From Cristatella mucedo (lineage: Eukaryota > Bryozoa > Phylactolaemata > Cristatellidae), in NCBI GenBank assembly GCA_009760855.2, contig WPIO01000056.1:1430501-1494500 (forward strand): 64,000 nucleotides of DNA, written 5' to 3'. The translations under genes and the position numbers were made by a program. Shown here one piece after another: positions 866-58,050 of the stretch. Every line of letters starts with the position of its first letter. Positions within the stretch are counted from its first letter, which is position 1. The notes beneath the pieces were generated by a model. The model saw only the letters and a list, made by a program, of their open reading frames with translations. It did not search any database and was not told where the DNA came from.

Positions 866-3461
866 CTGCAAGCCAAAAAACAGTACGTTGTGCCAGGGGT
901 CAGTGTCTATCAGTCATAATATGACGGTCGTAAGCACCATCAGCACAACAATTTTCCTACATCCCATGATTTCCTTAAGACAGCTCTTTTAGGCATGGCA
1001 TCACTTGCAGGCTTGAAGCTACTAATTTTATGTAGCGTACCCAACCTAGTCTGGACATTCTGAAGCCACAGAGGTCACCGTAGGAATAGAGAGACCCTAA
1101 TGGTCGGTAAGTCTCCTGATCGTTACAAGCCATCTTTGGCTTGCAAGATGCTCATCGTTGTTGACGACCGAGGTCGCGTGCTTGCACCCTGAGGCATATG
1201 TAAAGTTTTCGAATAGAGATTAAGTTATCTTGGGGCTCTACACAAATGAATTACATTTATATTTATATATAAAAGTCTATTGTATTATATAAGCACGGTG
1301 GTCAACATTTAAATCACCAAGTTGACTGATAAAAAACCGTTGGGATCGTAGACAGTCTCGTGACACGCTTACTGCCCAAAGAATATGCTTTGCCAATAGA
1401 ACAATAAGGTGACATGAAACTTGTCGGAGGAAAAATGCTTCGACACAACAAGTAATTTCTTAATGCATCTCCGTCTGTAACTCCAAAAAGTCATGAAGAC
1501 CATGTGGGTGTTACGCAGAAGAGTTTTGTATAGCGCACTCACAGCCTAAGCGGCTTTCGGTACGCATTCGGTAGCCAACAGACTTCCTCTCGCGCAACAA
1601 AGAAAAAGTGGGAAGCATAGCAGAGTCAGGAGAGCAGTTAAGGTAGTGAGTAGCATGGAAGTGGCAGCTAAGGACCGCTGAAAAGAATGTGCCATAGTCG
1701 GCAGCAGGAGAGTAGCTGTCGTTGCGTAAGAATTGTGGAAGCAAGTTCCACAGTCTAGGACCTGCAGAGCTAAAGCTTCTATCGCCAACGGTCTTTAGGC
1801 GGAGCAATGGGACAGCTAATTTATTGTCCCCAGAGGACCTGAGGGCGCGAACAGGCTGAAACTGGTGCAGCAGTTCAGCAATTGCGCTGGCGATCGACTA
1901 AATAGTACTTGCTGTTTTAACTCCATTGGCATGAGATCTGTATAGCATGTTGTGAACCAACTGCAAAAGCAACTCACTTTAGTATAAGAGACATAATGTA
2001 TTTTCAGCTTGGGGTCGTTGCTATACAATGCAAAAATGTTTGCTTTGTTTTTTATTGGGCCAGTGATGCTGTGAACCAATTGCAAAAGCAACTCACTTAA
2101 GTATAAGGGACATAGTCTATTTTCAGCTTTGGGTCGGTGCTATACAATGCAAGAATGTTTGCTTTGTTTTTTATTGTGGCCAGAGTATCACCTGTTTGGC
2201 CCAGTGGTATATGTGCTCAGCTCGACCAAGGTCTGGCCGAGGTCGTGGGCTCAAGCCCCAAGGCATATGTGAAACGCCTGAATAGAGCTTAGGTTCACTT
2301 AAGGAACTATACAAACGAATTATATTTTTTATATTTACGTGCAGAATGGGTGTTTTGGGCAAAAATGGCGTGTCACTAGATGACCAAATCAGTGCCCAGG
2401 TCAAGTAAACCTCCTTGCAGCTACTTTGCGTAACAAAAATTAGGGCTTGCTTTGATAGGGATACCACAGCCTAGATGTGCCATACATTAACAACATTCCT
2501 ATTTAGACTTCGTAGCTCACTACTTGCTGTTCTTCCTGTCTGAGCAATAGTGGGTGCAAATCTCAACAGCTAGGCATGTCTGTCGTGAGCGTAGCAGTAG
2601 CCACATTGCATCACTTATCTTCGACCTGCAACTGGCCCTGCAAGAAGCATCTTATGAACTTCAAGGTTCTAAAATTTGACTTTTAGGACCCCAATTTGTT
2701 TTTTGTTTTTATACTACTATCAGTTCTTGGTAGCTGGTCAGTACCATGTGCAAATCTGGCCGCAATAGGGGAAAATAGTTCACTACAATCAATAGATGTT
2801 TTAGATGAATAAATAAAAATTGTTAATCATTGATCTACATGGCAACACCATAAAATTCCACTTATGCACAAATGAACTATCGTCGGTAATGCATTGAAAG
2901 GCTAGTAACTCCAACACGAAATTTTGAATTCTACACAATCAAGTTGGGTTTGGCATTAAAGGATCAATTAGGTCATCTCATAACTTCAAATGTCAAAAGA
3001 ACACAGCAGCAGCAAAGCAACTGCCAAAGACGTCATTTTAAAGTACAGAGCAACAGGAGGCCATCTGCCGTGGGACTGACCTGAAAAAAATTTCTTCACG
3101 GGTCAAGTGCAATTCGTCAAGTGCTCTATCGATTAAGCAGACCAGGGTCAAGGTGAATGTATCTCATGGCCGAGCTCACATGCTCGAGCCCCGTGGCATA
3201 TGTGAAGCCCCTGAATAGAGATTTAGTTCTCTTAGGGCTCTATAACAAGTGAACTATATTTTGTATTATAATCCTTCGACGCTTGATAAGGGGCCTAAAG
3301 GCTAAGCTTTAAATTTATACTTTCGTTCTCGAGCCTAATCTCGGTGTGTTGCATGAATTGCTGCGTGTGTTGCATGAATTGCTGCGTATGTTAATCAATG
3401 CAATTTGGGCCAAGCTTAGGCAAATTCCAAGTCAAAGAACAGCCACGACAGCCAGACAAGA

Positions 3462-9989: not shown

Positions 9990-12053
9990 GGGAATTCAAA
10001 TCCCATGCTTTAAAGCCCTGCATTGAGTATCGAACGATAATCAGTTCTGAATTGAGCTCAGCCTTTCGAACCCTGAACCTTTGTAACGCAGAGGTTTCGC
10101 CCTCGCTCCCGCTAGAGACGAAATTTGGTCCAGGCGAGTTTTCTGCTTGCGATGTGGCTACTTTAATAAGGTCTTGTAAAAAGAGCTCGTCTCCTGAAGA
10201 CCCTAGACCATCACTCTCTGTTTTCTCAGTGGCAGACCAACGTAGCCCTGCCATAACCGAGATTTATAACGCTTCTTTGGTCAAAGGGGTCGTACCCAAG
10301 TCTTTCAAATCTGCAATCGTTAGACCAATACTTGAAAACCCTGGATTAGACACAGAGGTCCTTGCAAACTATCGTCCAGTTTCCCTTCTTCCTTATTTGT
10401 CAAAGATTCTCGAAAAATTGTCGCTAAGCAGTTGCTAGCACATATTGAAAAGAATGAAATGTCAGAAACATTTCAATCGTGGTTCAAGAGGCAGCACTCC
10501 ATTGAAACTGCTCTCCTTAGTGTTAACAATGACATTCTATGTGGCAACGATGACGGGAATGTCACTGCCCTAGCTCTGCTAGATCTATCAGCTGCCTTCG
10601 ACATCATTGATCACAATATCCTACTCGAACGATTGAGAACAACGATCGGTCTGGCAGATGAGCCATTGGCGTGGTTTAAATCGTACTTGTCTGGTCGTGT
10701 TCTATCAGTGTCGTGTGTGGGTCAGGTCTCACCCGCGAGATTGGTCACCTGTGGAGTCTCTCAAGGGTCCGTTCTCGGTCCCTTGCTGTTATCCATTTAT
10801 ACTCGACCTCTGGGAAAAATAATTAAGACCCATGGAATAGGATATCACTTTATATTGACGATACTCGACTGTATTTGTCATTTAAGCCGTCGGAATCTGC
10901 TTCAGCAATTGATAAGCTGAATTATTGCCTTACCGACATTCGATCCTGGATGTCGGAAAACTTCTTGAAACTAAATGACAGTAAAACTGAACTATATTTC
11001 GTTTTTGACAGCCGCATAAATTTTAAAACCTTCACTCAGAAGACTGCTTCTAAAACTAGCCATCACATCCGATTCCTATCTAAGATGAGGAGCTGTCTTC
11101 CATGGTAGCTTGCAAACAATTTCACAAGCTCTTTAGTTGTGTCTCGGTTTGATTATTGTAATTCCCTTTTGGCCGGCTACCAAAAAAAGCAACTAGGTCA
11201 CTGCAAATGATTATGAATATGGCTTTAAGGCTAGTTTTTAAGTTTCACAGGTTTGACTACGTGTCTCCTTTGCTAAGAGAGCTATGATGGCTGCCGGTTG
11301 ATCAACGGATACAGAGCCAAGTTCTTACGCTGACCCACAAGGCCCACCACGACTAAGCTCCTCCGTACCTAGCTGAACTGCTGTACTAGTTTTAGCCTGT
11401 TTGCGCCCTCAGGTCCTGCGTGGACAATGAATTAGCTGTTCCATTCCTCCGCTTAAAGACCGCTGGCGACAGAAGTTTTAGCTCTGCAGGTCCTAGACTG
11501 TGGAGCTTACTTCCACGATTCTTACGCAACAGTCAACTACTCTTCTGCTGCCGACTATTGCTCATCCTTTCCAGCGGTCATGAGCTGCTACTTTCATTTC
11601 ACTCTCCATCTCAACTGCTCTCCCGACTCTGTTATGCTTCCCACTTTCTCTTTGTTGCGTGAGATGAAATTTGTTGGCTACCGAATGCGTACTGAAAGCT
11701 GCTAAGGCTGTGAGTGTGCTATACAAAGCTCTCCTGCGTACTGTGGCTTTAGTTAATTGGTGACACTGCCCCTGATCGCTGTACGAGTGGGCTGTGACAC
11801 TCGATGTGGTAAGCAGCCGGGCCGTGCGATTAGTGGTTTGTTTTGCCAAGGGAGTCGGGGGGGGGGACTCCGGTGGGCGAGAGGGGCGAGGAGAGTCGTG
11901 TTTCGCCCTGCTCCGTGTGTAGGGAGAATAAACTGGTGGTGTTGCTCGTCGGCTGGTGTTCTGTGCCGTTCGCGAAGATAATTCAGACTACACGTACCAC
12001 ACACATTGTCTTTGTGGCTCTGTACAGTTACAGAAGGAGATACATTACAGGCC
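9990..12053 (+). mobile_element. L2-like LINE family B, longest copy, with nested solo LTR
   Basis: Shows the reverse transcriptase fingers ([34 protein letters not shown]), palm (ALALLDLSAAFDIIDHNILL), GVSQGSVLGPLL and the C-terminal tail ([18 protein letters not shown]). These are hallmarks of the L2/CR1 group. Frameshifts split it: the first RT block ends at 10438 and the next runs 10432-10920 in another frame, and the YADDT box is destroyed by a small deletion near 10855. The 3' UTR is interrupted by an LTR at 11742-11992 and resumes at 11998, ending near GGAGATACATTACA. No endonuclease domain is seen upstream. Confidence 0.85.
11742..11992 (+). mobile_element. Solo LTR, 251 bp (fossil), inside a LINE
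   Basis: Starts TGTGGC, ends ACTACA and is flanked by the 5-bp direct repeat CGTAC (11737-11741 and 11993-11997). It interrupts the family B LINE 3' UTR exactly, and LINE sequence resumes on the far side. It contains AATAAA at 11927-11932. A 5-bp duplication fits several LTR retrotransposon families; there is no internal region from which to choose. Confidence 0.75.
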
Positions 12054-27229: not shown

Positions 27230-27718
27230 ATGTGATGGCGGGCGTGATGGCGGGCGTGATGGCGGGCGTGATGGCGGGCGTGATGGCGGGCGTGATGGCG
27301 GGCGTGATGGCGGGCGTGATGGCGGGCGTGATGGCGGGCGTGATGGCGGGCGTGATGGCGGGCGTGATGGCGGGCGTGATGGCGGGCGTGATGGCGGGCG
27401 TGATGGCGGGCGTGATGGCGGGCGTGATGGCGGGCGTGATGGCGGGCGTGATGGCGGGCGTGATGGCGGGCGTGATGGCGGGCGTGATGGCGGGCGTGAT
27501 GGCGGGCGTGATGGCGGGCGTGATGGCGGGCGTGATGGCGGGCGTGATGGCGGGCGTGATGGCGGGCGTGATGGCGGACGTGATGGCGGACGTGATGGCG
27601 GACGTGATGGCGGACGTGATGGCGGACGTCATGGCGGACGTCATGGCGGACGTCATGGCGGACGTCATGGCGGACGTGATGGCGGACGTAATGGCGGACG
27701 TGATGGCGGATATGATGG
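27230..27718. repeat. 12-bp minisatellite, about 40 units
   Basis: Unit GTGATGGCGGGC for roughly the first 28 copies, then GTGATGGCGGAC and GTCATGGCGGAC variants up to 27718. Because 12 is a multiple of 3 and the unit lacks stops, frames on both strands stay open and give 200-305-codon ORFs with (MAGV), (ITPA) or (ARHH) repeats. These are not considered genes. Confidence 0.97.
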
Positions 27719-36083: not shown

Positions 36084-37548
36084 TCACTTGATAAAGCGCC
36101 CTCAGAGAACTTAATCTCTCTCTGGGCGTTTTACATTTGCTGTAAAGTGAAATGCAATTGAATGGCAAGTAAAATCATGCTTGAAAAACAAACGAACTGA
36201 ATAATATGGTTAGGGGTGACATGCACAGGGTCAGCATTCAAATGTGGTTAGTGGCAGCATGCACAGTGTCAGCACGCATAAGCACATCAAGGACGAATCA
36301 CAGGGACCCACTAAATGCTGTCCTAAATAGGTGTGTTTTTAGGTTCCTTTTAAGTGTGGTCAGGTCAGGGGATGTTCTGACGCAGGTCGGAAAGCAGTTC
36401 CAGGCTTTGGGAGCATACGAACTAAATGCACGGTCTCCAAATGATTTAAGGTTTGTATGAGGTATTCCTAGACTGTTGAATCCCGAAAAGCGGGTGGTAC
36501 GATGCTTGGCCTGATGGGGTAGTATATCTGACAGATAGGCTGGAGCCATAGAATGAAGGGACCTAAAAGTGAGGGACAAAACCGTGAAGTCAATCCGTTG
36601 CCTCACTGGTAGCCAGTGCAGGTCGGCGAGAAGTGGAGTAATGTGGCAACTGCGACGCTCACGACAGACAAGCTTAGCTGCAGAGTTTTGCACCAGCTGC
36701 AATCGCCTGATCGCACATGCTGGTAGGCCAATAAGCAGTGAGTTGCAGAAGTCAAGACGAGATGTCACGAATGCATGGACCAACTTGGACGTGGTATCTT
36801 TATCTAAACAGGCCCGAATTTTAGCAATGTTATGAAGCTGAAAATAGGCGGATTTGACTGTGGAGCTGATATGGTCGTCTAACGAGAGGTCGCTTTGGAA
36901 TATGACACCTAGATTTCGAGCTGATTCAACTGGAGATATGCTGGCAGAGCCAATTTTGAGAGTCAGCCTTTCCAATCTCTGGATCACACTGGGTTTTCCC
37001 ATAACTAGTAAGTTAGTTTTGTCATCGTTTAGTTTTGGAAAATTTGCTGCCATCCATGTGCGGATGTCATCAATGCATGCAGCTAGTGAGTTTAGACAAT
37101 TTGAGGTGCTCGAAGGCTGGGAGGAATCAAAGCAAAGGTACAACAGAGTGTCATCCGCATAGAAGTGAAAGCCTAGATTGTGCTTAGCAATCACATCAGC
37201 AAGAGGGAGAGTATAAACCGTGAAAAGAACCGGACCTAGCACTGAGCCCTGAGGTACTCCATATTTTAGAGGTACTTCACATGATCTTTGTCCATTCACG
37301 TCAATACTCTGGAGTCTCCCACTGAGATAGGACCTGAACCACTGCAGAGCAGTGCCAGTGATGCCCAGGCTAGATGAGAGGCGCTCTAGAAGAACTTTGT
37401 GATCGATGGTGTCAAAAGCTGCCGAAAGATCAAGCAAAACAAGCAGAGACACTCTACCCATGTCTGCATTCCTAAGTAGGTCGTTGTATACCCTAAGCAA
37501 TGCTGACTCTGTGGAGTGATTAGCTCTAAAACCGAATCACAGGTTAGA
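36052..37548 (-). mobile_element. LINE family A, best-preserved copy
   Basis: On the minus strand, a 5'-truncated L2-like element runs from GFRANHSTESALLRV through the reverse transcriptase to the 3' UTR, hairpin and (ATT)n tail at 36052-36082. The coding part is open over its whole length. It is highly similar to the copy at 38079-39064, so it is among the youngest in the window. Confidence 0.93.
36298..37500 (-). CDS. LINE reverse transcriptase fragment, 400 codons
   Basis: Part of the family A LINE ORF2. RT motifs in order: VLLDLSAAFDTIDHKVLLERL (palm block A), [23 protein letters not shown] and FHFYADDTLLY (catalytic Asp pair intact). The L2-type C-terminal segment follows (LHSMAPAYLSDILPHQ, FGDRAFSSYAPKAWN, FKRNLKTHLFRTAF in related copies) and then a natural stop. 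The endonuclease and the RT fingers are missing by 5' truncation, so it is not autonomous. The reading frame continues upstream to about 37548 without an ATG. Confidence 0.9.
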   Translation of the reverse strand: MLRVYNDLLRNADMGRVSLLVLLDLSAAFDTIDHKVLLERLSSSLGITGTALQWFRSYLSGRLQSIDVNGQRSCEVPLKYGVPQGSVLGPVLFTVYTLPLADVIAKHNLGFHFYADDTLLYLCFDSSQPSSTSNCLNSLAACIDDIRTWMAANFPKLNDDKTNLLVMGKPSVIQRLERLTLKIGSASISPVESARNLGVIFQSDLSLDDHISSTVKSAYFQLHNIAKIRACLDKDTTSKLVHAFVTSRLDFCNSLLIGLPACAIRRLQLVQNSAAKLVCRERRSCHITPLLADLHWLPVRQRIDFTVLSLTFRSLHSMAPAYLSDILPHQAKHRTTRFSGFNSLGIPHTNLKSFGDRAFSSYAPKAWNCFPTCVRTSPDLTTLKRNLKTHLFRTAFSGSL

Positions 37549-44592: not shown

Positions 44593-44787
44593 ATGCGGTG
44601 GCTTTTTTGCAGGTCATTCGCAGAGGCCGTGCTGCCGTTATTCCTACCCGTGATCCTATGCTTGACAGCCTTTAAGCTATGGCAGACCTTCGTCAGCACT
44701 CACAAGGATCCTGCAAGCAAGCTGCCTCTGCCGCCGGGTAGCTTTGGAATTCCATTCCTCGGAGAGACACTCTCCCTGGCTCGTCAA
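44593..44787 (+). CDS. CYP26: CYP26-like exon 1
   Basis: 65 codons from ATG (MRWLFCRSFAEAVLPLFLPV...) with a hydrophobic anchor of about 20 residues and the Pro-rich hinge, ending FLGETLSLARQ in phase 0. Donor CAA|GTAAGT. An upstream in-frame extension has no ATG, so this start is preferred. Confidence 0.88.
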
Positions 44788-47700
44788 GTAAGTAAACAAA
44801 GAAATGCTGCAAGAGTCCAAGTGCAAGATGAGTTGCTCGAGAGCGTGTTGCGGTCGACCGTGCAGATGCCGTAGGAACGTGATCGACGAGAGCTGCATCA
44901 CAGTATCAACGACAGGTTTGGCCGGTGAAACAATAACAACCCTACCGTCTTGCAGGGCTACGATTTCTTTCGGCAAAAGAGGGCAAAGTACGGTCGAATA
45001 TACGCGACTCACTTGATGGGCCGACCAATTATTCGAATATTTGGAAAAGCCAACATCAGCCGCATACTTGAATCAGAAGACACCTTAGTCACCATGAGCT
45101 GGCCAAGGTCTGTCCAGCTACTGATGGGCGAGGGTGCTTTAGGCCAGAGCACCGGCGCTGTACACGGCCAGAGGCGGGCAGCCATCCTCCAAGCATTAAC
45201 ACCAAAGCAAGTTCAAGGTGAGAAAGTCTTGTCTAAAAAAGAACAAGGAAAAACTCTTATTGCAGGCCTTCCTTGACTTCATTCGATGCCCAGGCATAGC
45301 CATGCACGACCTTCCAACATAAATACTGGCAGCTTGAGGCCACTTTACCTAAATGCACCATCATAACCTGCAGCATGAGACATTGCAATAGTCGGTTCTT
45401 GGGGCTCAGCCTTAACCCAGACTGTCTAGACGTCCTAGAACTCCGAAGGTGGCAGATCAATTGTTCTGTTTGATTGATTACATCTCTTACTGAGCTAGGG
45501 CTTGGCACACGCGTCTTGGCTCACAGGCAGCGGCTTCAATTTCCCTACCCTACGTATGTGGGTTTGAGTCCTGACCGTGGGGCAATGTTTTATTGCCCAC
45601 TGCAAGTGCAAGACGTGGCCGCAAAGGCCCTTTTGCGGCTACATATGTGTAGCTGCTAATCAGCTGAACTTTGCTGCTACGCTTCATGCATTACTCAGTT
45701 TGCATGACTACAGGCTTAATCAATCAGCTCAAATATCTGGAAGGCTTGCAATTGTTAATCGAACAAACCTCAAATCCTTTGGAGACCGCGCCTTAATTCG
45801 TATGCTCCCAAAGCGCGGAACTCACTCTCCACCTGCGCAACGACATCTCCTGACTTGTCCACATTTAAAAAGAAATTAAAAGCCCATCTATGTATGACTG
45901 CATTAAGTGGATCCTTGTGACTCGTGCACTGTGTGCTTCTGCGTGCTGACACTGTTGCATGCTGCCACTAACCACACTTGCATGCTGACCCTGTCCCCCT
46001 AACCATGTTATTCATGTTGTTAATCAAGCATATATATATATATATAATTAGACAAATAAATTATATAAGCATGATATTACTAGCCACTCGATCGCGTTTC
46101 CCTTTGCTCATATAAATCGCATAGAAAGAGATTGAGTTCTCTGAAGGTGCTTTATCAAATGTATTATTATTATTATCAATTTTTACGGGAGCCTATTAAC
46201 TGCTCTGACACATGAACGTGTACAGATAGTGCCATGATAGTGTATTAGGAATTCTTAAGGAAATTCTCGCCCAAAACCTAAGATCATCCCCCTGCAGATT
46301 TTACAATCATTCATTCAACTAGAACGTTTGGGATCATCGACGTGAAAACTGCTATTCTGTCGTAGACGAATTCCGGCATGGATCGTGTTGCCTTGCATTT
46401 TTACAGAGGAAGTATTCAGCATCGATGTGGTCAGCATATAGTCCTGGCCAAGCATGCCTTCATTTGCTAACCATATTAATCTAGAAGATATCCTTACAAT
46501 ATCCTTATATCCTTACAATATCCTGACAATGTGCAGTATATATTATCCGCACATATTCAAATATGCAAACCTTTCTGTAACATAGAAAACACAAGTTTCC
46601 CATAGCAGCTGCTAATTCTGTACACTTTATGAGTTGTAGGTGTAGCATATGAAATTCCAGTACATAAAAGTGCACATTTTTCGTATTTTATCAATGTTTC
46701 CATTGCCTTTTCCATAGCTTGACTTGTGTGCTATCTTAGTTCTGCAATACAGAGATCAGTTGGCTTGTATTTCATATTTCAGCATTTTTACCATTAGTCC
46801 AAAAAGTTACTCGAACCCACATCAGTAAATGGCAGAAGGAAGCTGTAATGTCCTGCTACACTGATAGCCGACGACTGGCGCTTGATTTGACTGCTCGAGG
46901 GCTGCTCGGCCTTGAACTAAGCGATAGCCAACTGACGTCAGTACTCGGCGACCTTTGTACCATTCAGGAGAACTTCTTTTCTCTTCCTTACGGACTTCCG
47001 GGATTCGGTATGAGCAAGGTGTGTATAAATCTGGAGCAAACTATGTGGTCCACATTACATAGCGGCCAGATAAGTCATCTTGAGCAACATCCGCATAGCT
47101 GAGAAAAGTTGAATTACTATGGAGCGAATAATTCTCAGCTGGCCACTCCCCCAGCTGCTTGCCGGCCATATACGTTTTCGTGATCAGCTGTGCTGCTTAC
47201 TGCAGGGAATGGCTGCCCGAAAATCCATTCAGCGGCAGCTTGACGCAGCCGTGCACAAGGCCATGACCAGCAAGAGCTACGCGGGCGATTATTCTCAGGA
47301 TGCCCTGTCTGCTCTGCTAGCATCCATGGAAGCGAATGCGCTCAGCCTGCAAGATGTCAAGGACAGCTGCCTGGAAATGCTATTCGGCGGCCTGGAAGGT
47401 CAGTAAATGAGTGAGTGAGTTATGCTACGGTATCATCCCTCTGCCATCTACCTTACATCATTTCTGGTTTTTTCTGGCTTGCCGTGTCCTAGACTAATCC
47501 TAATTCTTGCGACACCGACCGTTCACCGAATGGCAAGCCCTTCTGTCGAGCAACTGCTAATAATAGTCGCTTCCAGTGGTGGTGATCGTAGCTAACCCTG
47601 GGTCTTATTCAAAGCTTAAGGTGCTTGCTCGTCGCGACACAGGTCCGCTGGATTCCGACCCAGCAGTGGGCGATCCTATGTTGCCTACTGCAACCGGTAG

Positions 47701-50560
47701 CGATAGCCATTAAGGCTCTTACGCAGCAACATAAAAAACAAGCTGCTGAATCGGATAGCTATTACTTAAGCGGTTTTGCTGACCAGTTAAGGGCTGGAGA
47801 TGCTTAGTTGATGTGCTTGCTCGCACGGGTATGCATGGACACCGGCACGGAGGGGGAGGAGCGAAGGTACTTCAGTACGTGTCAGGCATTTATCTTACAA
47901 CTGTTGCAGCAGTTCGCATATGTGAATATTTCTTTAAGGAAGAAGCCAGCCATTGGTCAGCCAGCTGACTCGATGAAGCGCTGCCGAATTGAGCTCGACC
48001 GTACTAAATTGCTACACTCAATGTGGGCCATTCAACGTCCGATAAGCTTCAGGCAACATACCTGGCTGCCGCCATTGAGAGGTTGAATTCCAATTCTCAA
48101 TTCAAGCGAGACCAGGCCAGGGAATGCCCTAACCGCTCTAGTTAGCTCTGGCTGGGAAGGGTCTCCAGAAGCAGCTGCTCCTCCTCCTTGAGAAGCTCCT
48201 GCCTCTTCTGGCATTGAGTTTTGTTAGCCTGCGAAATTGCCATCAAAGAGTAAGAGCCCTTTCCCAAGGTCTCAATTAAACATGCAGTCTAATATGCCTT
48301 TAACGGGAAGACCGATAGGTGATAGCCGCAGCCAGTCTGAATGTCACAGGAACTTGGCCAAAGTCGAGTACGCAACGTCTACTGTAGGTACTATTTAGCT
48401 CATGCAGCAGCTTCCGATCGGAAGTGGAGGTCGATGCCAATGTCGGTACCGGAAGTAGAGCTTGCTGGCCCGTGCTTGCATCACAATAGCATGTGAACGT
48501 GCTTCTCTGCTGCAGGCATATCCAGCGCCCTGTGCACAATAATGATTAAGCTTGCCACGCAAAAGGCTTTCCACGATAAAGCTGCAACGGAAGTGCACAA
48601 TTGGTACCTGAACCAAGATCGTAGTAGCGCCTTGCAAGTGCCTTTGTGCATCAAGAGCATTGTTCAAGAAGCACTTCGCGTAACACCTCCTGTTGGAGGA
48701 GGTTACAGAAAAGTTCTAAAGACATTCGAACTGGAGGTAAGATATTAACATCTAGCATTAATTCCGTGCTTGCTCTATTTAGACAACTTAATTGTAACTA
48801 TTAGTCACATCAATGAGGTTAACCGTATATTAGCATTGGCCGTGCCAGTATGGTCCAATCACTGCCTCAGCATATACTGGAATCCACAGACTACTACTAC
48901 TCTACTAGTCGACTACTACTACTCTAGCCACGTTTTCTGAAGAAATGCAGTTGTCACGAGGATAAAAGTCGTTTCATCAAATGAATTTGCTTTAACTTCA
49001 ATTACTGGATCATTGCAGAATGCTAGTGCAGCAATACTTACAAGCAATACTACAGAGTTGTATTGCTTGTCTTGCATCGCTGTAGGTCTACCCCTGAATT
49101 CAGACCTACGTATACAGAGTACCGTCACTGCAAGCACACGGCGACCAATAGATGTTTGTGTGTGTGAGTGTGTATGTGTGAGTTCGTGCGTGCGTGTGCA
49201 TTTGTGTGTGTGTGTGTGTGTGTGTGTATTCAAGTTGCTAGCGCCCACTCATAATGACTGCACGACAGCTGCCTTTGGTTAATAGTACAGTTGTACCCAT
49301 TACGGGCAACTGAGCTTGACCAAAAATACCTAGCCGCCGAATAAACTTAAATGCCACCGTTAAATGATTGCCTCGTGAAGGTCGGGCGAAGGTCAAGTCG
49401 GGAAATAAAAAATGGCAACACTAGGAGCCCATTAATCTTAGTACATGCCCTAAGTCATTTTGAAAGCCATAAGTGGAATGCCAATCTCACTTCTCATCGA
49501 GATTTATCTACTTTTCGGATATTTGTTATAGGATCGACCGTGGTTTACTGCAACTGTGATTGACAATGTCTCAGCAGCAGCACTTGTACCATCAGGGAGT
49601 GGGAGAGTGGTTGCTAATTACGCGACCACTTTGAGTTAACTTATTGTTACAAACTAGTTGCTTGGTTCCACGTCCGAAGAGAACTAGGCCGCTAGCAGCA
49701 CTTGTGACGGTGAGTCACGGTAGAACACAGAAGCAAAGACGAAATAACCTAAACCTTAACAAGTAACAAGTCCTTTCCGCTAGGCAAATCTATTCGGCAG
49801 CAGCTGGAGGGTTACAGGCGTTTAACAAAGTACACTTGGCCCGCAGCTCAAATCAGCACAAATGCCAGTACCAGCTTCGGAAACACAACTGCCTATCTAT
49901 CTCATGGCGTCGGCTTGTATATGGCCGAGGCCATAGGTTGTCGCATAATCAGTTCCTAGCTGTTACAATACAGGAACCATGAATAATGAATATCGGTCGT
50001 AATCTGGCCGATTTAGCTTGCCACCCTTTATATTTTGTGTCTACGGTTGACTCAATGCACTTGACATTTGGTTGTCAAGTTCCTGCAGAATGTATTAAGC
50101 TTTGAGCCTGAGCTAAAGCCGCTACTGATGCTGACGTGCGATTAAAATGGTGCCGCTCTGTTACATGTAGGGATTCTATAGAAAGTTATTCTTCATGTTC
50201 GAAGTACTAATATTTTCGTTCTAGGGTTATCAAATACCTCGCGGTTGGACCGTGTTGTACTCGATTCGTGATCAGCACGAATGCGACGAATCTGTATCGG
50301 ACGTGGACTCCTTCAAACCAGACAGGTGGTCTGCTGCAGACGGAAGTGCTGAGGCAATCTCGAGCTACATTCCATTCGGCGGCGACGGACCGAGGTCGTG
50401 CATTGGTCAGCATTTCGCCGTCGCAACATTGCAGGCCATCACCGTCGAACTGCTGTCAAGCTGTAGATGGAGCGTTTCCGGTGGCGTCGAGCCGAGTTTC
50501 GTACACTTTCCGACCCCTTACCCAGCTCACGGCACCTGCATCAAGCTGTCTGCAAAATAA
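44593..50560 (+). CDS. CYP26: Cytochrome P450, CYP26 family-like (retinoic-acid hydroxylase family)
   Basis: CYP26 enzymes are haem-thiolate monooxygenases of the endoplasmic reticulum that clear retinoic acid. Six exons (44593-44787, 44956-45217, 46783-47018, 47206-47398, 48516-48736, 50225-50560) join in phase into 480 codons, near the usual ~500. In order: N-terminal membrane anchor, hinge KLPLPPGSFGIPFLGETL, KYGRIYATHLMGRPIIRIFG, HGQRRAAIL (C-helix), FLPLVQKV, FSLPYGLPGFGM, I-helix FGGLEG|ISSAL, K-helix EALR (ExxR), GYQIPRGW, SFKPDRW, haem loop PFGGDGPRSCIGQHFA. The alignment to CYP26A1 is collinear throughout. Oddities: the two I-helix threonines (GGHETT in CYP26A1) are replaced, and the haem loop has one extra residue. 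All introns are GT-AG; introns 2 and 4 hold LINE and SINE copies. Confidence 0.93.
44956..45217 (+). CDS. CYP26: CYP26-like exon 2
   Basis: 87 codons plus one base: GYDFFRQKRAKYGRIYATHL... to ...LTPKQVQ. Acceptor CGTCTTGCAG, donor AAG|GTGAGA. It covers the A/B helices and the C-helix haem-propionate region (HGQRRA). Confidence 0.93.
45491..45667 (+). mobile_element. SINE family 1-like, diverged, in CYP26-like intron 2
   Basis: B box GGGTTTGAGTCCTGAC, GGGGCAATGTTTTATTGCCC and GCCGCAAAGGCCCTTTTGCG. SINE-1 layout with many changes. Confidence 0.6.
45740..46178 (+). mobile_element. LINE family A 3' end in CYP26-like intron 2
   Basis: Encodes NRTNLKSFGDRALIRMLPK and carries the 3' UTR, the hairpin (AGAAAGAGATTGAGTTCTCT) and an (ATT)n tail. 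A TA-rich insertion at 46030-46065 interrupts the 3' UTR. Confidence 0.88.
46179..46782. other. CYP26-like intron 2, remainder
   Basis: A/T-rich intron. TATCCTTACAA is repeated near 46490-46525. The pyrimidine tract before the acceptor ends ATATTTCAG. Confidence 0.5.
46783..47018 (+). CDS. CYP26: CYP26-like exon 3
   Basis: Two bases completing an alanine codon, then FLPLVQKVTRTHISKWQKEA... to ...LPYGLPGFGMSK. The acceptor TTTCAG at 46782 is preferred over a later TTAG because only it restores the block matching YVPVITEEV in CYP26A1. Donor AAG|GTGTGT. Confidence 0.9.
47206..47398 (+). CDS. CYP26: CYP26-like exon 4
   Basis: 64 codons plus one base: GMAARKSIQRQLDAAVHKAM... to ...CLEMLFGGLE(G). 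The start matches CYP26A1 GMKARNLI. Acceptor TTACTGCAG, donor GAAG|GTCAGT. It ends within the I-helix. Confidence 0.92.
47610..47765 (+). mobile_element. SINE family 1 in CYP26-like intron 4
   Basis: AAGGTGCTTGCTCGTCG, the B box TGGATTCCGACCC, GTGGGCGATCCTATGTTGCC and AGCGATAGCCATTAAGGC. Confidence 0.75.
47766..48515. other. CYP26-like intron 4, remainder
   Basis: No missed exon is needed: exons 4 and 5 join in frame across this intron. Short ORFs here are not coding. Confidence 0.5.
48516..48736 (+). CDS. CYP26: CYP26-like exon 5
   Basis: Two bases plus 73 codons: ISSALCTIMIKLATQKAFHD... to ...GGGYRKVLKTFELE. It contains the K-helix ExxR as EALR and the VTPPVGGGYR block, as in CYP26A1 NPPVPGGFR. 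Acceptor CTGCTGCAG, donor GAG|GTAAGA. Confidence 0.92.
48737..50224. other. CYP26-like intron 5
   Basis: Holds a (GT)n microsatellite at 49157-49228 and a CTACTACTACTCTA patch near 48890-48925. No exon is supported. Confidence 0.5.
49157..49228. repeat. (GT)n microsatellite
   Basis: Interrupted, then pure GT run inside the P450 gene's last intron. Confidence 0.95.
50225..50560 (+). CDS. CYP26: CYP26-like exon 6 (last)
   Basis: 111 codons and TAA: GYQIPRGWTVLYSIRDQHEC..., the FKPDRW motif, then the haem loop with cysteine codon TGC at 50399-50401, and the C-terminus GTCIKLSAK. Acceptor TTCGTTCTAG. No canonical AATAAA is close; ATTAAA lies at 51278. Confidence 0.93.
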   Translation, partial: GYQIPRGWTVLYSIRDQHECDESVSDVDSFKPDRWSAADGSAEAISSYIPFGGDGPRSCIGQHFAVATLQAITVELLSSCRWSVSGGVEPSFVHFPTPYPAHGTCIKLSAK

Positions 50561-52079: not shown

Positions 52080-53240
52080 CAGGCCGCTGCAGCTGGTGAT
52101 AAATAGGGCTGCAGGGCTAGATAACTAACCCAAGAAGTTTTACACTGTGTCTCTTTTGCTGGAGGAGCTTTCGGTTGATCAACGGGTGCTGAGCAAAGTT
52201 CTTAGGCTGACCCAAAATGCTCGCCTCGGCTTGGCCCCTTCATACCTAGCTGAGCTGCTGCACCAGTTTCAGCCTCTTCTTTTCCTCGAGTCAATATCCA
52301 AGGACAAGACATTAGCTGTTCCATTCCTCCGCTTAAAGGCCGTTGTCGAAAGAAGCTATAGCTATAGATCGCAGACTGTGGAACTCACTAACACAATTCT
52401 TACGCAACGACATCTTATCGCCTGCTGTTGACTATGGCTCATCCTTCCCAGCCGTCTCGCTGGAGCTGCTGCATCCATACTACTCGCTGCCACAACTGCC
52501 CTCCTGATTCGGCTTTGCTTCTCGCTGTTTTCTTTGTTGAGTGAGATGAAGTCTGCTGGCTACCAAATGCGTACCGAGAGCCGCTAAAGCTGCGAGTGTG
52601 CTACTACAGAGAGCTCTCTGCTACAGAGGGCTCTCTGCTACAGAGGGCTCTCTGCTACAGAGGGCTCTCTGCTACAGAGGGCTCTCTGCTACAGAGGGCT
52701 CTCTGCTACAGAGGGCTCTCTGCTACAGAGAGCTCTCTGCTACAGAGGGCTCTCTGCTACAGAGGGCTCTCTGCTACAGAGGGCTCTCTGCTACAGAGGG
52801 CTCTCTGCTACAGAGGGCTCTCTGCTACAGAGGGCTCTCTGCTACAGAGGGCTCTCTGCTACAGAGAGCTCTCTGCTACAGAGGGCTCTCTGCTACAGAG
52901 GGCTCTCTGCTACAGAGGGCTCTCTGCTACAGAGGGCTCTCTGCTACAGAGGGCTCTCTGCTACAGAGGGCTCTCTGCTACAGAGGGCTCTCTGCTACAG
53001 AGGGCTCTCTGCTACAGAGGGCTCTCTGCTACAGAGGGCTCTCTGCTACAGAGGGCTCTCTGCTACAGAGGGCTCTCTGCTACAGAGGGCTCTCTGCTAC
53101 AGAGGGCTCTCTGCTACAGAGGGCTCTCTGCTACAGAGGGCTCTCTGCTACAGAGGGCTCTCTGCTACAGAGGGCTCTCTGCGTGGCATCCATTTAGTAT
53201 TAGTAGTTTTGTGGACTTGCAGACAGAGATAAATACATAA
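52080..53240 (+). mobile_element. LINE family B 3' half containing an expanded minisatellite
   Basis: Encodes [15 protein letters not shown] and VPFLRLKAVVERSYSY; the 3' UTR begins near 52590 (TGCGAGTGTGCTA). The 17-bp array (52603-53181) is followed by the remaining LINE end (TTTTGTGGACTTGCAGACAG and AGATAAATACATA). The ORF is broken. Confidence 0.85.
52603..53181. repeat. 17-bp minisatellite, about 34 units
   Basis: Unit GCTACAGAGGGCTCTCT, nearly invariant. Variant units with the perfect palindrome CAGAGAGCTCTCTG start at 52607, 52726 and 52862, spaced by 7 and 8 units. The unit corresponds to the LINE B 3' UTR segment GCTATACAAAGCTCTCCT of other copies. Confidence 0.97.
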
Positions 53241-56234
53241 ATCCCCGTAAAATTCTTAGTTGTATTTACACATAAGGTCTGTGTGCTTTTTCTGCTCTTT
53301 AGTGACAAGCCTGCGGCTGATGTAGTTGTTTATATTCAATTAAACAGTTCCTCCTGAATATTACACTACAATTGCCGACGTCTCCTGACTTCAATTAATT
53401 ATTAAATAATGTCACAGTGCAAAACCCGTGAAGATTACGCGCACATTATCGAATTTATTTTAGCTTTTATTTTGGCATATTTTCCACGAGAATTCTGAGT
53501 ATCGCTGCTTATCATTTCTTTCTGGGCAGATTGTGCACACACTTCTCATTGTCTGGCAATGGTTTGGAATTTTTTACCTGAATTATAGCTTCCCCTGGCA
53601 TAAAACAAGTGCAGAGTCAGCAGGAATAAATAAACCAACGAAAATTCCCCAACCATGGTAAGTTAGTAATACACGCCAAGTAGTGAGCAAAATGGGGTAT
53701 TTTAGCAGCGATTGGCTACAATTGACTTCGCTGTCCAAGAATGTGGACGTGCAGTAAATTGTTAAACGTGCAAGATTTCAAGATATTCACCGTCGCACGT
53801 TCGGCTTAGACTCTTGGAACTAAAGAGAAAGTAGCTTAATAGCAGCTTCTTCAGAAAGTGCTGTCGGCTGACGCGATGGCGACCTTATCCCTATCCTGAC
53901 CGGGTGACCTTGGCCAGTTGACCGGAGGGCGGATCAGGAGAGTTGCGGCTCTAATCTTAGATTAAGAGATTGGTCGAAAATAGGAAAAAGACCTTTGAGG
54001 AGTAAACCATCAGCATTGCAAGCTGCAGGTGGACATGTCCTCGCTGAAGCCTGACCTTGCTAGCCTTGCTAACCTCGCCTCGTGACCTTGCTAATCCCTG
54101 GCGCCTAGGCCTCTGCAAAAAATGTTTACGAGCTTGAATCGTGGGAAATTGGACTATCCCCACGGCGCGCAGCTTGGCTCAAGCATGAAGTTCTACATCC
54201 TGGTTGAAGGGCTTCTGACTGCGTTCGGCCTACATGCATTTATGAATAATGCATGCATTCGTGACTGACATTGTGAGCATTTGCGACTGACAAATGCACG
54301 CAGACGCGAGCGCTTTTGCGACACGCGATTTCCGTCGAAAGAAGCGACGCATTTCGCCAGCGACGCATTTCGCACGCGCAAATCAGTCAGAGTATCCACG
54401 CGCGTCTACTTACGGACATCCTCCGCAGAAGCAGACTTATCCATAGCAGTTTACATATTTGGAGTCCAGACGCGTGTGTCTTGAGCATCTCTCGAAGCAG
54501 CACCGCTGCTTCGGCCGCAGCCTCACCAATGACGCGAAAATGAGGAGGCGGACGCTAGCCAGGGTGAACTAGACCGGAACTTCGCTGAACTTTTAGGGAC
54601 TCGGGAGCGCTCTAGACAGCGCCTAGCCAAAACAGGGCGAATGAGCGACAGGCCGGCGACGACGGTCGGCCAACATAAGTACTTCGCAGCGAGGTCTAGG
54701 TTGCCACGAGAAATATTCGGTCAGCCGGCAAATGTGGGGCCGCAAACTCATCGGAGGAGGGCGGGAAGTGCATTTCCCTCCCTCCCTCCCTCCCCGCTAA
54801 GCTTTAAGCTCCGGCTTAACCGTTCTTGGAAAGTCGCGCGCTTGTAATCTAAGCCGCAGCTGATCTGCGGGGCGGTGCACAGGTGACACGATCGGGCGAA
54901 GAGTGGCGTGTCCGGAGTGCGACCTCTGCTGCGAAGTTCAAGCTTAGCTGCCGGGCGCGGTGCCGCTGGCGAGAGGCAAGTGTGGGGCGAGGGCGCGGCC
55001 TTTGCTGCCGCTGAGGACTGCCGGTGTGGCTACGGACATTTAGTGACGCAACGCTTGCGGTGGCAGCGTGACTCGCAGAGAATGCGCGTCACGCTGCCAC
55101 AGCGACATCGAGTGCATGTGCAGGATCTAGCCGGATGTACACTGGACGGCCGGGTAACAAACGGGAGCCTACGGTGACGTACAAATGCGGTTACGAACAC
55201 CCTGCTTGATAAGAAGAAAAAAATGACTCGGCTTACGAGCGCAGCCATGAACCTCGTCATGAACCGAACCTAATATGAACTAGCATGTGCTTTAAAAGTA
55301 TTCCGGTGTAGTTTTGGCGCCTTTGAGTGGATCGGCTGCTGGAGGTTTTCAAATAAAGCACGTGAGAGCAAAATAATTCGTACCAATTTAAAGAGCGCTA
55401 ATTTGAGGTATCTAAGCAGGTGTCATTCCAACGCGAGGGTGGGGTGAGAATAGGGTAAAACCTATGCAATGAGTGAAGACAATCTTCCTACCACGAGTGG
55501 AGAAGCATTTCAAGCAGTAACTTTCAATTTAGGAAAAATGGCCGGCGAACCCAGTATTGGTGAGGATTAGTTTCAAAACCCGGGACTCCATTTGTCTTGC
55601 TTCGGCTAGTCATGCATCTAGCCGAGTGCAGTAGACGGGGCCCTGCTGTCCTAAGCTACGTAGCGTAGTGCCATATTGTCGGCCTCAACAATTAGTGGAG
55701 CCTCCTCTTCGCCGGTACCGCGACATGCATTTGCGCTCTTATCTCTTTTTAAAGAGATATATTTGTGCATGATGCTTGAAAATACCGCCGTCGACGCCAA
55801 GCTGATTAATAATTTGCTCCAGCTCTGAATCGACTACCTCAACCAATTATGCTAAGATTTTACACTTGATTCGGAAGATTATTCATTTCCCTAGCCAGAT
55901 TGGCATGCAAAAAAAACCTAAAACACGTTCGGCATCTCTGAAGTTAATTGGTTCAAATCAAGTATGAAAGAATTGACGTGGTCTGCTATAATGCTCCTAC
56001 CCTCATCGAGCTCTAGACCTGCAGCATTCGTCGGTCAAGCTACAAGGCAAGACTGTGCTAGAATTTGCAATGCAGAGGCGCTTTTCATTTGTGCAAATAA
56101 TATGCTGCTGCTGTACTTGTGCTTTGCTCCGTTCCTGCCTCTCAGTACGTCAAATTCTGCCACACCCCTTCATGCTTGTATTGCTGACATTTACACTTAT
56201 ACTGATGTCCTTACTTACACGTACATATATTTGT
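53241..56234. other. No recognised gene; CpG-rich 54.3-55.2 kb
   Basis: A/T-rich to about 53.8 kb, then GC-rich with short GCGACGCATTTCGC repeats near 54340-54375. ORFs of up to about 90 codons lack motifs. Confidence 0.35.
55060..55100. repeat. 13-bp perfect inverted repeat
   Basis: GTGGCAGCGTGAC and GTCACGCTGCCAC separated by 15 bases, in a CpG-rich stretch. Confidence 0.9.
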
Positions 56235-56236
56235 AG

Positions 56237-56316
<80 letters not shown>

Positions 56317-57042
56317 TACTGCCTAGTCTCTCACTCTCTCCTCTCTTATCTCACTCTACATTCTCTTCTCTTTACCTATCTCACTTTTTCATCTCCTCTC
56401 GCACTCTCCCCTCTCATCTCTTATTCTCCTCTCCCTCTCTCTCTCACTTTTTTATCCTCTCCTTTATTACTCTCTCCTCTCGTCTCTTACCCTCTTACTC
56501 CCTCCACTCCTCTCTTTTCCTCTCCGAATCTCTACTCTCTCTCTCTCCTCTCTCATCACCTTCTCTACACTCTCTTTTCTTCTTGCTTACTCTCTCCTCT
56601 CGTTACTTACTCTCTAGTCTCCCAATCTCACCTCTCTTATCTCACTGTACTCCATCCTCTCTTTTTCACCTCCATTCTCTCCTCGCCTCTTGCACTCTCA
56701 CCTCTTCTCTCTTAATCTCTCCTCTCTCTCTCTCTCACTTACTTCTCTCATCTCTCACCTCCCCTTCTACTCTCTTTTCTTCTCTCTTACTCTCCTCTTT
56801 TTCAATCTCTTCTCTTCTCGTGATCTCTCCTCTCCTCTCTTATTCTCTAGTCTCTCCCTCTTCATTCTCTTATTTCTACTCGCCCGCGTTTCCTCTCTGA
56901 CTCTCTCCTCTTCTCTCGAACTCTCTGCTCCCACTCTCTCTTCTCTCTCTCTCTCACTCTCTCCTCCCCTAATTCACTATCTCCTCTTCTCTCTTAATCT
57001 CGCTTTTTACTTCTTACTCTTTACTCTTTGTCTCCTCTTTAC
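56235..57042. repeat. Polypyrimidine tract, (CT)n then CTCTCCTCTTA-like
   Basis: About 78 bp of pure CT is followed by roughly 730 bp of imperfect C/T-rich sequence with scattered A. The long ORFs across it (Ser/Leu-rich) are artefacts. Confidence 0.95.
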
Positions 57043-57690
57043 AATATTAATAATACACTTGATAAAGTGCCCTCGGAGAACTCAATCTCTTTTAGGTGCT
57101 TTACATTTGCTGTAAAGGAAACACGATCGAATGTTGAGTGGCATCACGCTCATAAACAACAAGAATAGCATATTTAGGGGTGACATGCACAGGGTCAGCA
57201 TGCAAGTTTGGTTAGTGGCAGCATGAAACAGTTTCAGCACGAATAAGCACATAAAGGACGAATCACAGGGACCCACTAAATGCTGTCATAAATAGTTGAG
57301 TTTTTCGTTTCTTTTTAAATGTGGTCAAGTCAGGGATGTTGTGAAGGCAGTCGGGAGTGAGTTCCGGGCTTTGGACGCATACGAACTAAATGCGTGGTCT
57401 CCAAAAGATTTGAGGTTCGTACGAGGTGTAGGAGAGCAGTTAGATTCTGAAAAGCGGAGGTTGCAATGCTTTGCCTGGTGGGGCAGTGGATCTGATAGGT
57501 AAGCTGAAGCCAAAGAATAAATGGACCTAAAAGTGAGCGACAAAACCTTGAAGTCGATGCGTTGTTTGACTGGTAGCCAGTGCAGGTCGGCGAGAAGTGG
57601 TGTGATGTGGCAACTGCCACGCTCACAACAGAGAAGCATAGCTGCAGAGTTTTGTACCAACTCTAAGCGCCTGATTGCACAGGCCTTGCA
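57043..57690 (-). mobile_element. LINE family A inserted in the polypyrimidine tract
   Basis: The minus strand encodes [27 protein letters not shown]... and TNLKSFGDHAFSSYA, with the 3' UTR, hairpin and short (ATT)n tail at 57043. It is 5' truncated. The same C/T tract resumes on the right. Confidence 0.9.
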
Positions 57691-58050
57691 CAGGCCTATT
57701 TCCTCTCATTCACTCTTCCTCGCCTCTCTTACTCTCCTCTTTTCTTACTCTCTCTTCTCTTCTCTTGCTCTTATTTCTTCTCTCTCACGCTTTTTTCTCC
57801 TCACTCACTCCAATCTCCTATTCTCTCTTCTCATGACTTACTCTCTTCTCTACTTTCTTGCTGTCATTTGTCTCATTACCTCCTCTCTCACTCTGTCTTC
57901 TCTTCTCTTAATGTTTCTTCTCCTCTCTTGCTCTCTCCTCTCTCTTTCGCTCTCTCCTTTCCCACTCTCTCTTCTCACATACAACTCTCTCGTCTATTTG
58001 AATCTCTCACCTATTCCTCTCCTCTCTCCCCCATCTCCTCTCTCAGGTCA
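57691..58050. repeat. Polypyrimidine tract, second part
   Basis: Continues the C/T-rich tract beyond the LINE insertion. ORFs here are low-complexity. Confidence 0.93.

Follow-up and report, generated by a model that had tools for sequence, protein, structure and literature searches.

CYP26-like cytochrome P450 genes without the catalytic I-helix threonine in the bryozoan Cristatella mucedo

In animal embryos, gradients of retinoic acid are shaped by CYP26 enzymes; textbooks place the oxygen activation of P450s at the acid-alcohol pair of the I-helix. Natural P450s without the threonine of this pair include EryF, P450cin, CYP74 and CYP152, which are bacterial or plant families with mechanisms of their own. 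Here we describe gene A, a P450 gene in a 64,000-nucleotide stretch of the Cristatella mucedo genome (GenBank assembly GCA_009760855.2, contig WPIO01000056.1, positions 1,430,501 to 1,494,500 of the forward strand; this whole stretch is called the window, and coordinates refer to it unless another contig is named), together with gene B, the only close relative of gene A found in the genome. Both lack the catalytic threonine. Our reading, to which we give a probability of about 0.45, is that gene A is intact and maintained, forms an ancient pair of paralogues with gene B and encodes a P450 of the CYP26 group in which oxygen activation may be altered.

Four kinds of described P450 come closest to gene A. 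Human CYP26A1 resembles it in a hydrophobic N-terminus, LPLPPG, the R90 and W112 positions, PPVxGG[FY]R, FELxGYQIP[KR]GW and the haem cysteine. It differs in having Thr304 and Thr305, where gene A has Gly and Ile, and in having no extra aspartate in the haem loop, and the two proteins are identical at 171 of 473 aligned residues (36%), including much of FELEGYQIPRGWTVLYSI. The closest solved structure, CYP120A1 of Synechocystis (PDB 2ve3, E=4.5e-66, 31% identity), is the retinoic-acid-bound template for CYP26A1 models (PMC6274249). Like gene A it lacks the second threonine (ETL), whereas CYP120A1 and its cyanobacterial relatives keep the catalytic threonine and have no haem-loop insertion. In human CYP20A1 the I-helix motif AGx[DE]T is missing and the haem loop is altered (PMC4964396; cnidarian forms in PMC8110760), but this enzyme belongs to a different family, its likeness to gene A is one of motif changes by description, and the human form is said to be one haem-site residue short; the haem loop of Hydra CYP20A1, as printed, is one residue longer (PMC8110760). 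The annelid clan-26 enzymes CYP26D1, CYP3068A1 and CYP3069A1 of Capitella have varied I-helices (AGYETT, ASQETL and GAQETL), but unlike gene A all three, as tabulated, keep the catalytic threonine and a haem loop of normal length without the extra residue (PMC4229089). Clustering with CYP26 is reported for a fourth Capitella sequence, outside the tabulated three. A literature search, for which most subscription papers were out of reach, turned up no CYP26 described as lacking the catalytic threonine.

When the codons of exons 4 and 5 of gene A were joined, the I-helix read L-F-G-G-L-E-G-I-S-S-A-L, the same reading as in a first-pass annotation of this DNA (FGGLE/GISSAL). Glu295 (47395-47397) is followed by Gly296, whose codon is split by the intron (47398/48516-48517), and by Ile297 (48518-48520). 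In CYP26A1 numbering, Glu303 is kept, Thr304 is replaced by Gly and Thr305 by Ile. The I-helix consensus [AG]Gx[DE]T[TS] is absent from both genes, which have GGLEGI (gene A) and TSFQAL (gene B); this motif is variable and is not needed for P450 membership (PMC4229089). We compared gene A with 37 relatives, namely PDB 2ve3 and the 36 usable open reading frames (ORFs) from 42 bacterial loci, six loci having been set aside for want of one frame that contained the ExxR as well as the haem motif. The catalytic position was occupied by Thr in 35 of these relatives and by Asn in 2, and in none by Gly. The next position, Ile in gene A, was Leu in 25, Thr in 10, Ser in 1 and Ile in 1. The first-pass annotation had reported that the acid was kept and that both conserved threonines were lost. 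The kept acid and the loss of the catalytic threonine stand, and the second threonine is not conserved. Judged by these sequences, the first change is striking and the second is common and, alone, unremarkable. The missing second threonine may matter too, by analogy with CYP199A4 and P450 BM3, where such a residue reportedly takes part in the network of hydrogen bonds (PMC9366932). The haem loop of gene A, FGGDGPRSCIG, is one residue longer than FxxGxRxCxG; GxRxCxG is kept and the extra residue precedes it. This insertion, overlooked in the first-pass annotation, was present in 0 of 37 relatives. One scan of viral contigs (60 pattern stretches) found no relative.

The gene model of gene A (44593-50560, + strand) has six exons, five GT-AG introns and 480 stop-free codons, so the good splice sites and intact frame reported earlier for exons 4 and 5 are borne out. 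To enumerate the junctions, GT or GC donors in 47300-47599 were combined with AG acceptors up to 48639, and in-frame, stop-free joins were retained. None of the 60 joins gave Glu-Thr at the exon 4/5 junction, and only the donor/acceptor pair 47398/48516 gave the full 480 residues. The alternative GT-AG join 47402/48526 gave LEGHALCT, which is two residues shorter and also without the threonine; the GC-donor join 47365/48582 gave Asp-Thr, but with the helix deleted. A splice misread, already thought unlikely in the first-pass annotation, was rejected on these 60 junctions. A microexon in intron 4 was judged unlikely, as the helix aligns gap-free to the relatives, although no dedicated search was made. 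Sequencing error is also unlikely, since gene B shows the same loss independently. From these sequences, then, genes A and B are not a splicing misread or a sequencing error, and a loss of the threonine by artefact is very unlikely.

Gene B was found when the whole host assembly (572 Mb, 688 contigs) was searched. The gene A protein matched itself and one close gene, gene B on contig C111 (C111:16639981-16643762; L063 3491-7335), in exon pieces 28-50% identical, and two weaker ones (E 8e-4 and 0.004) coincided with other P450 loci of the genome. Rebuilt from exon 2 onward, gene B is an open frame of 434 codons (434 residues) that shares with gene A the lengths of exons 2 and 3 and the phases of introns 2-5. 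Its I-helix, LLTSFQ/ALSSV, has Ala for the threonine and Gln for the acid, and its haem loop, FGGDGQRSCVG, carries the same extra Asp. Genes A and B are identical at 166 of 406 residues (41%), with a nonsynonymous divergence (dN) of 0.58; the synonymous value (dS) was not computable by NG86. Because exons 2 and 3 are of the same length, the phases of introns 2-5 are the same, the Asp is shared and the proteins are this divergent (41% identity, dN 0.58), the two sequences are best described as old duplicates, both still open and both without the threonine. The shortest path (ACN, GCN, GGN) would be a change from Thr to Ala before the duplication and then from Ala to Gly in gene A. A close relative with the normal motif, which the first-pass annotation had proposed to look for, was not found: the sole close relative in this genome also lacks the threonine. 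None of 20,000 shuffled coding sequences was stop-free for either gene, which says little.

As a base rate, 22 distinct other P450 loci of the genome were picked from 108 matches as expected to span the helix. The threonine was kept in all 19 that could be read there, and 3 of the 22 could not be read. Large P450 clusters lie on C331 (2.29-2.78 Mb) and C22 (4.12-4.84 Mb), where the 10 and 5 I-helices read keep the threonine. Uninterrupted P450 frames of 814 and 717 codons occur at L043 (C497) and L044 (C652), other P450s matching exon by exon; these two also keep the threonine (AGHETL and AGYDTT).

Membership of gene A in the P450 superfamily is shown by its match to Pfam PF00067 (p450; E=3.2e-43, profile positions 1-442 of 462), the K-helix EALR and Cys428, and the intact ExxR and haem cysteine of the first-pass annotation are thus both present. 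Its CYP26-like label agrees with the best structural match, CYP120A1, and with the trees. The sole animal CYP26 in these trees was human CYP26A1, used as a sequence of 497 residues that agrees with 28 of 28 positions named in PMC6274249. A tree of 22 rows included 14 of the 36 bacterial ORFs, and a tree of 41 rows included all 36. Genes A and B were sisters with support of 100/100 (22 rows) and 100/99 (41 rows), and they formed a clade with human CYP26A1 with support of 100/98 in both. When human CYP26A1 was searched against the genome, genes B (E 4e-19) and A (5e-19) were the best matches. Eight weaker matches (best C497 8e-7 and C332 1e-5) all fell at P450 loci covered by the 108 matches, and no third, canonical CYP26 was found with this probe at E<=0.01. 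The eight weaker matches probably belong to other clans; L043 and L044, the only ones placed in a tree, had very long branches. Genes A and B are, on this search, the only CYP26-like genes found in this genome. A published survey counted 2 CYP26 genes in Capitella, 2 in Lottia, 3 in Crassostrea, 4 in Lingula and 1 in Octopus (PMC5247814).

The retinoid context was examined through contact residues and a receptor gene. Among 28 haem and retinoic-acid contacts of a CYP26A1 model (PMC6274249), 20 are identical in gene A and 18 in gene B, whose overall identities to CYP26A1 are 36% and 34%; Pro498 of that model was left out of the count, as the CYP26A1 sequence used has 497 residues. Arg90, Trp112, His133, Arg375, Tyr396 and Cys442 are kept in both. 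A RAR-like gene lies on the minus strand of C221 (L119-L121). Compared with human RAR-alpha, its DNA-binding pieces are 86%, 73% and 82% identical and its ligand-binding pieces 62%, 40% and 52%, and the label RAR-like follows from these matching pieces. Because this gene is present, retinoid signalling is not plainly lost.

How might such an enzyme work? Gene A keeps the haem cysteine, the ExxR motif, most of the modelled haem- and retinoic-acid-facing positions and a hydrophobic N-terminus, which is likely a membrane anchor. Its protein would bind haem and a retinoid-like acid and would still take electrons and O2. Without the threonine, the hydroperoxo-iron intermediate (Compound 0) would be poorly stabilised, leaving Glu295 and water as the sole route to Compound I, and much would leak away as peroxide. 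In place of fast canonical C4 hydroxylation, the enzyme would probably show slow hydroxylation, chemistry of the preceding peroxo species (polyene epoxidation, for example) or both. The residual activity of aromatase T310A was 36% in one of two quoted assays and 27.5% in the other, more H2O2 was released, and coupling fell from 52.2 to 15.0% in a table with estrone as product (PMC9366932). P450 BM3 T268A can equal the wild type on some substrates (PMC9366932). Because these two mutants stay active, loss of the threonine alone does not abolish oxidation. In P450cam T252A, effective hydroxylation was lost and 5-methylenylcamphor was epoxidised via the hydroperoxo species (PMC9112060). On a retinoid-like acid, chemistry that is slow, leaky or of the peroxo type therefore appears most likely by analogy, because other P450s stripped of the threonine can still form Compound I, though with leakage. 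Next would come normal hydroxylation, a water standing in for the threonine, and binding-only or oxygen-independent roles would be less likely.

Several observations weigh against altered oxygen activation in a maintained CYP26-group gene. The proposed chemistry would rest on genes of one species. Loss of the threonine is not unique among P450s, since other animal members of the superfamily are listed with degenerate I-helices (PMC4229089, PMC8110760, PMC4964396). In the trees, genes A and B and human CYP26A1 sit on long branches, and the tree program gives a warning that such branches meet there. The enrichment of contact residues is weak evidence, being due in part to haem contacts common to P450s. 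Gene A matches the relatives in 49 of their 78 conserved columns (63%), and the lowest relative, when left out in turn, keeps 62 of 84 (74%), a comparison that favours the relatives, which resemble one another; by sequence, gene A has also simply diverged. A water could replace its missing second threonine. A search of sequence upstream of gene B, partly made up of N, did not reveal its exon 1, and one donor of gene B is GC (GC-AG intron 3). Since gene B lacks the acid too (Gln), its proton path must, judging by sequence, differ from that of gene A.

The family name itself may be questioned. A rule of thumb of the nomenclature places proteins of at least 40% identity in CYP26, and gene A falls below it (36% to human CYP26A1, the only animal CYP26 compared). 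The name CYP26 for genes A and B is provisional: human CYP26A1 was the sole representative of animal CYP26 and CYP16 in the present trees, and one published phylogeny groups CYP16 with clan 26 (PMC8110760). The genes might therefore not be strict CYP26 but members of the neighbouring, poorly known CYP16, in which the odd I-helix and haem loop might be typical. This is unlikely, though it deserves serious weight; it concerns the name and is compatible with the mechanisms proposed. It is opposed by the 171 of 473 CYP26A1 residues kept in gene A, much of FELEGYQIPRGWTVLYSI among them, and by the fact that human CYP26A1 finds genes A and B first.

An equally serious, equally unlikely explanation is an ordinary monooxygenase, in which waters, Glu295 or a substrate hydroxyl replace the threonine and hydroxylation of retinoic acid or another substrate proceeds as usual. 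EryF and P450cin are natural P450s without the threonine, the acid Glu295 is kept in gene A, 2 of 37 relatives have Asn at this position, and Capitella I-helices vary (CYP3064A1 GVSDGS, CYP39B1 ASLANA and CYP3062A2 AGTESM; PMC4229089). However, both CYP26-like genes lack the threonine, gene B lacks the acid and both share the haem-loop insertion, which exceeds one tolerated substitution.

Somewhat less probable, to our mind, is that the whole CYP26 complement consists of two P450s in which the usual O2 activation is gone and which would either carry out retinoid chemistry with peroxide or substrate-borne oxygen, or capture retinoids without turnover. If this were true, retinoid signals in this animal, which keeps a RAR-like gene, would be ended by another route. 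Isomerase or sensor activity of the gene A product, suggested in the first-pass annotation, is one of several possibilities. An O2-independent isomerase, lyase or peroxygenase that uses substrate-borne oxygen, convergent with CYP20A1 or CYP74, finds a parallel in the cnidarian CYP20A1 forms (PMC8110760). We doubt it strongly: Glu295 is kept, gene A gains one haem-loop residue where human CYP20A1 is said to be one short, and Capitella CYP20A1 has AGFHTT, motif loss thus not being universal in CYP20 (PMC4229089). Hardly more or less doubtful is a retinoid-binding P450 with little or no turnover, serving as a retinoid sink or sensor beside the RAR-like receptor. The retention of most modelled retinoid-facing residues and the RAR-like gene on C221 fit such a role, but the ExxR motif, haem cysteine and hydrophobic N-terminus are kept and a pure binder is not obviously in need of them. 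A splice misread, sequencing error or pseudogene, to which the high divergence of gene A and, in gene B, a GC donor and a first exon that was not found might point, is highly improbable given 0 of 60 junctions with Glu-Thr, the same loss in the independent gene B, and open frames of 480 (A) and 434 codons (B from exon 2) at 41% protein identity.

Table 1. Parts of gene A in the window (a slash marks a splice junction)
Feature	Position	Strand	Description
Exon 1	44593..44787	+	Start Met, hydrophobic N-terminus, LPLPPGSFGIPFLGETL; GT donor; aligns with N-terminus of human CYP26A1
Exon 2	44956..45217	+	262 bp; length identical to gene B exon 2
Arg92, exon 2	45034-45036	+	Human CYP26A1 Arg90, modelled carboxylate anchor
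Trp114, exon 2	45100-45102	+	Human CYP26A1 Trp112
His135, exon 2	45163-45165	+	Human CYP26A1 His133
Exon 3	46783..47018	+	236 bp; length identical to gene B exon 3
Exon 4	47206..47398	+	First half of I-helix, ...LFGGLE/G; 3' end CTGGAAG/gtcagt
Altered acid-alcohol site Glu295-Gly296-Ile297, spanning intron 4	47395..48520	+	CYP26A1 Glu303-Thr304-Thr305
Intron 4	47399..48515	+	GT-AG, phase 1; splits codon at catalytic Thr position; same site in gene B
Exon 5	48516..48736	+	Second half of I-helix, G/ISSAL; TPPVGGGYRK; acceptor junction ttctctgctgcag/GCATATCC
K-helix EALR, exon 5	48668-48679	+	ExxR motif
Exon 6	50225..50560	+	GYQIPRGWTVLYSI, haem loop FGGDGPRSCIG, stop
Extra haem-loop Asp423	50384..50386	+	Missing in 37/37 relatives, found in gene B
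Haem Cys428, exon 6	50399-50401	+	Haem-loop cysteine

The positions of the parts of gene A are collected in Table 1. No second significant P450 piece or duplicate exon was found elsewhere in the 64-kb window, which is animal-type DNA with long interspersed nuclear element (LINE) reverse-transcriptase remnants and simple repeats. Pfam searches of ten other window ORFs gave 2 reverse transcriptases and 8 without a match; the LINE-type remnants (RVT_1) lie at 36298-37533 (-) and 10336-10917 (+). A tandem array at 52604-53182, 2 kb downstream of the P450 stop, repeats the 17-bp unit CTACAGAGGGCTCTCTG about 34 times with 99% matches, and another array at 27232-27709 repeats the 12-bp unit GTGATGGCGGGC about 40 times and is open in several frames of each strand. 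A long pyrimidine (CT-rich) tract covers 56239-57001, and the GC skew over 56001-58000 is -0.425. Elsewhere in the assembly, C688 (L105, L106) is a mitochondrial contig of 21 kb with an invertebrate-type code and a repeated block in direct and inverted copies; the block ORFs at 11632 and 13747 and the inverted one at 3078 are alike over the residues compared. In its cox1 frame TGA is read as Trp, and by eye the frame reads best with ATA as Met, AGR as Ser and AAA as Lys. The mitochondrial genes recognised by eye are all on one strand.

Under the reading that genes A and B are maintained CYP26-group paralogues with altered oxygen activation, the two enzymes may act on vitamin-A-like molecules more slowly or by another chemistry. 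A CYP26-like complement without the threonine, in an animal with a RAR-like gene, would be a natural experiment on retinoid control and on P450 oxygen activation, and it raises the questions of whether CYP26 in such animals ends retinoid signals and of how dispensable the threonine is.
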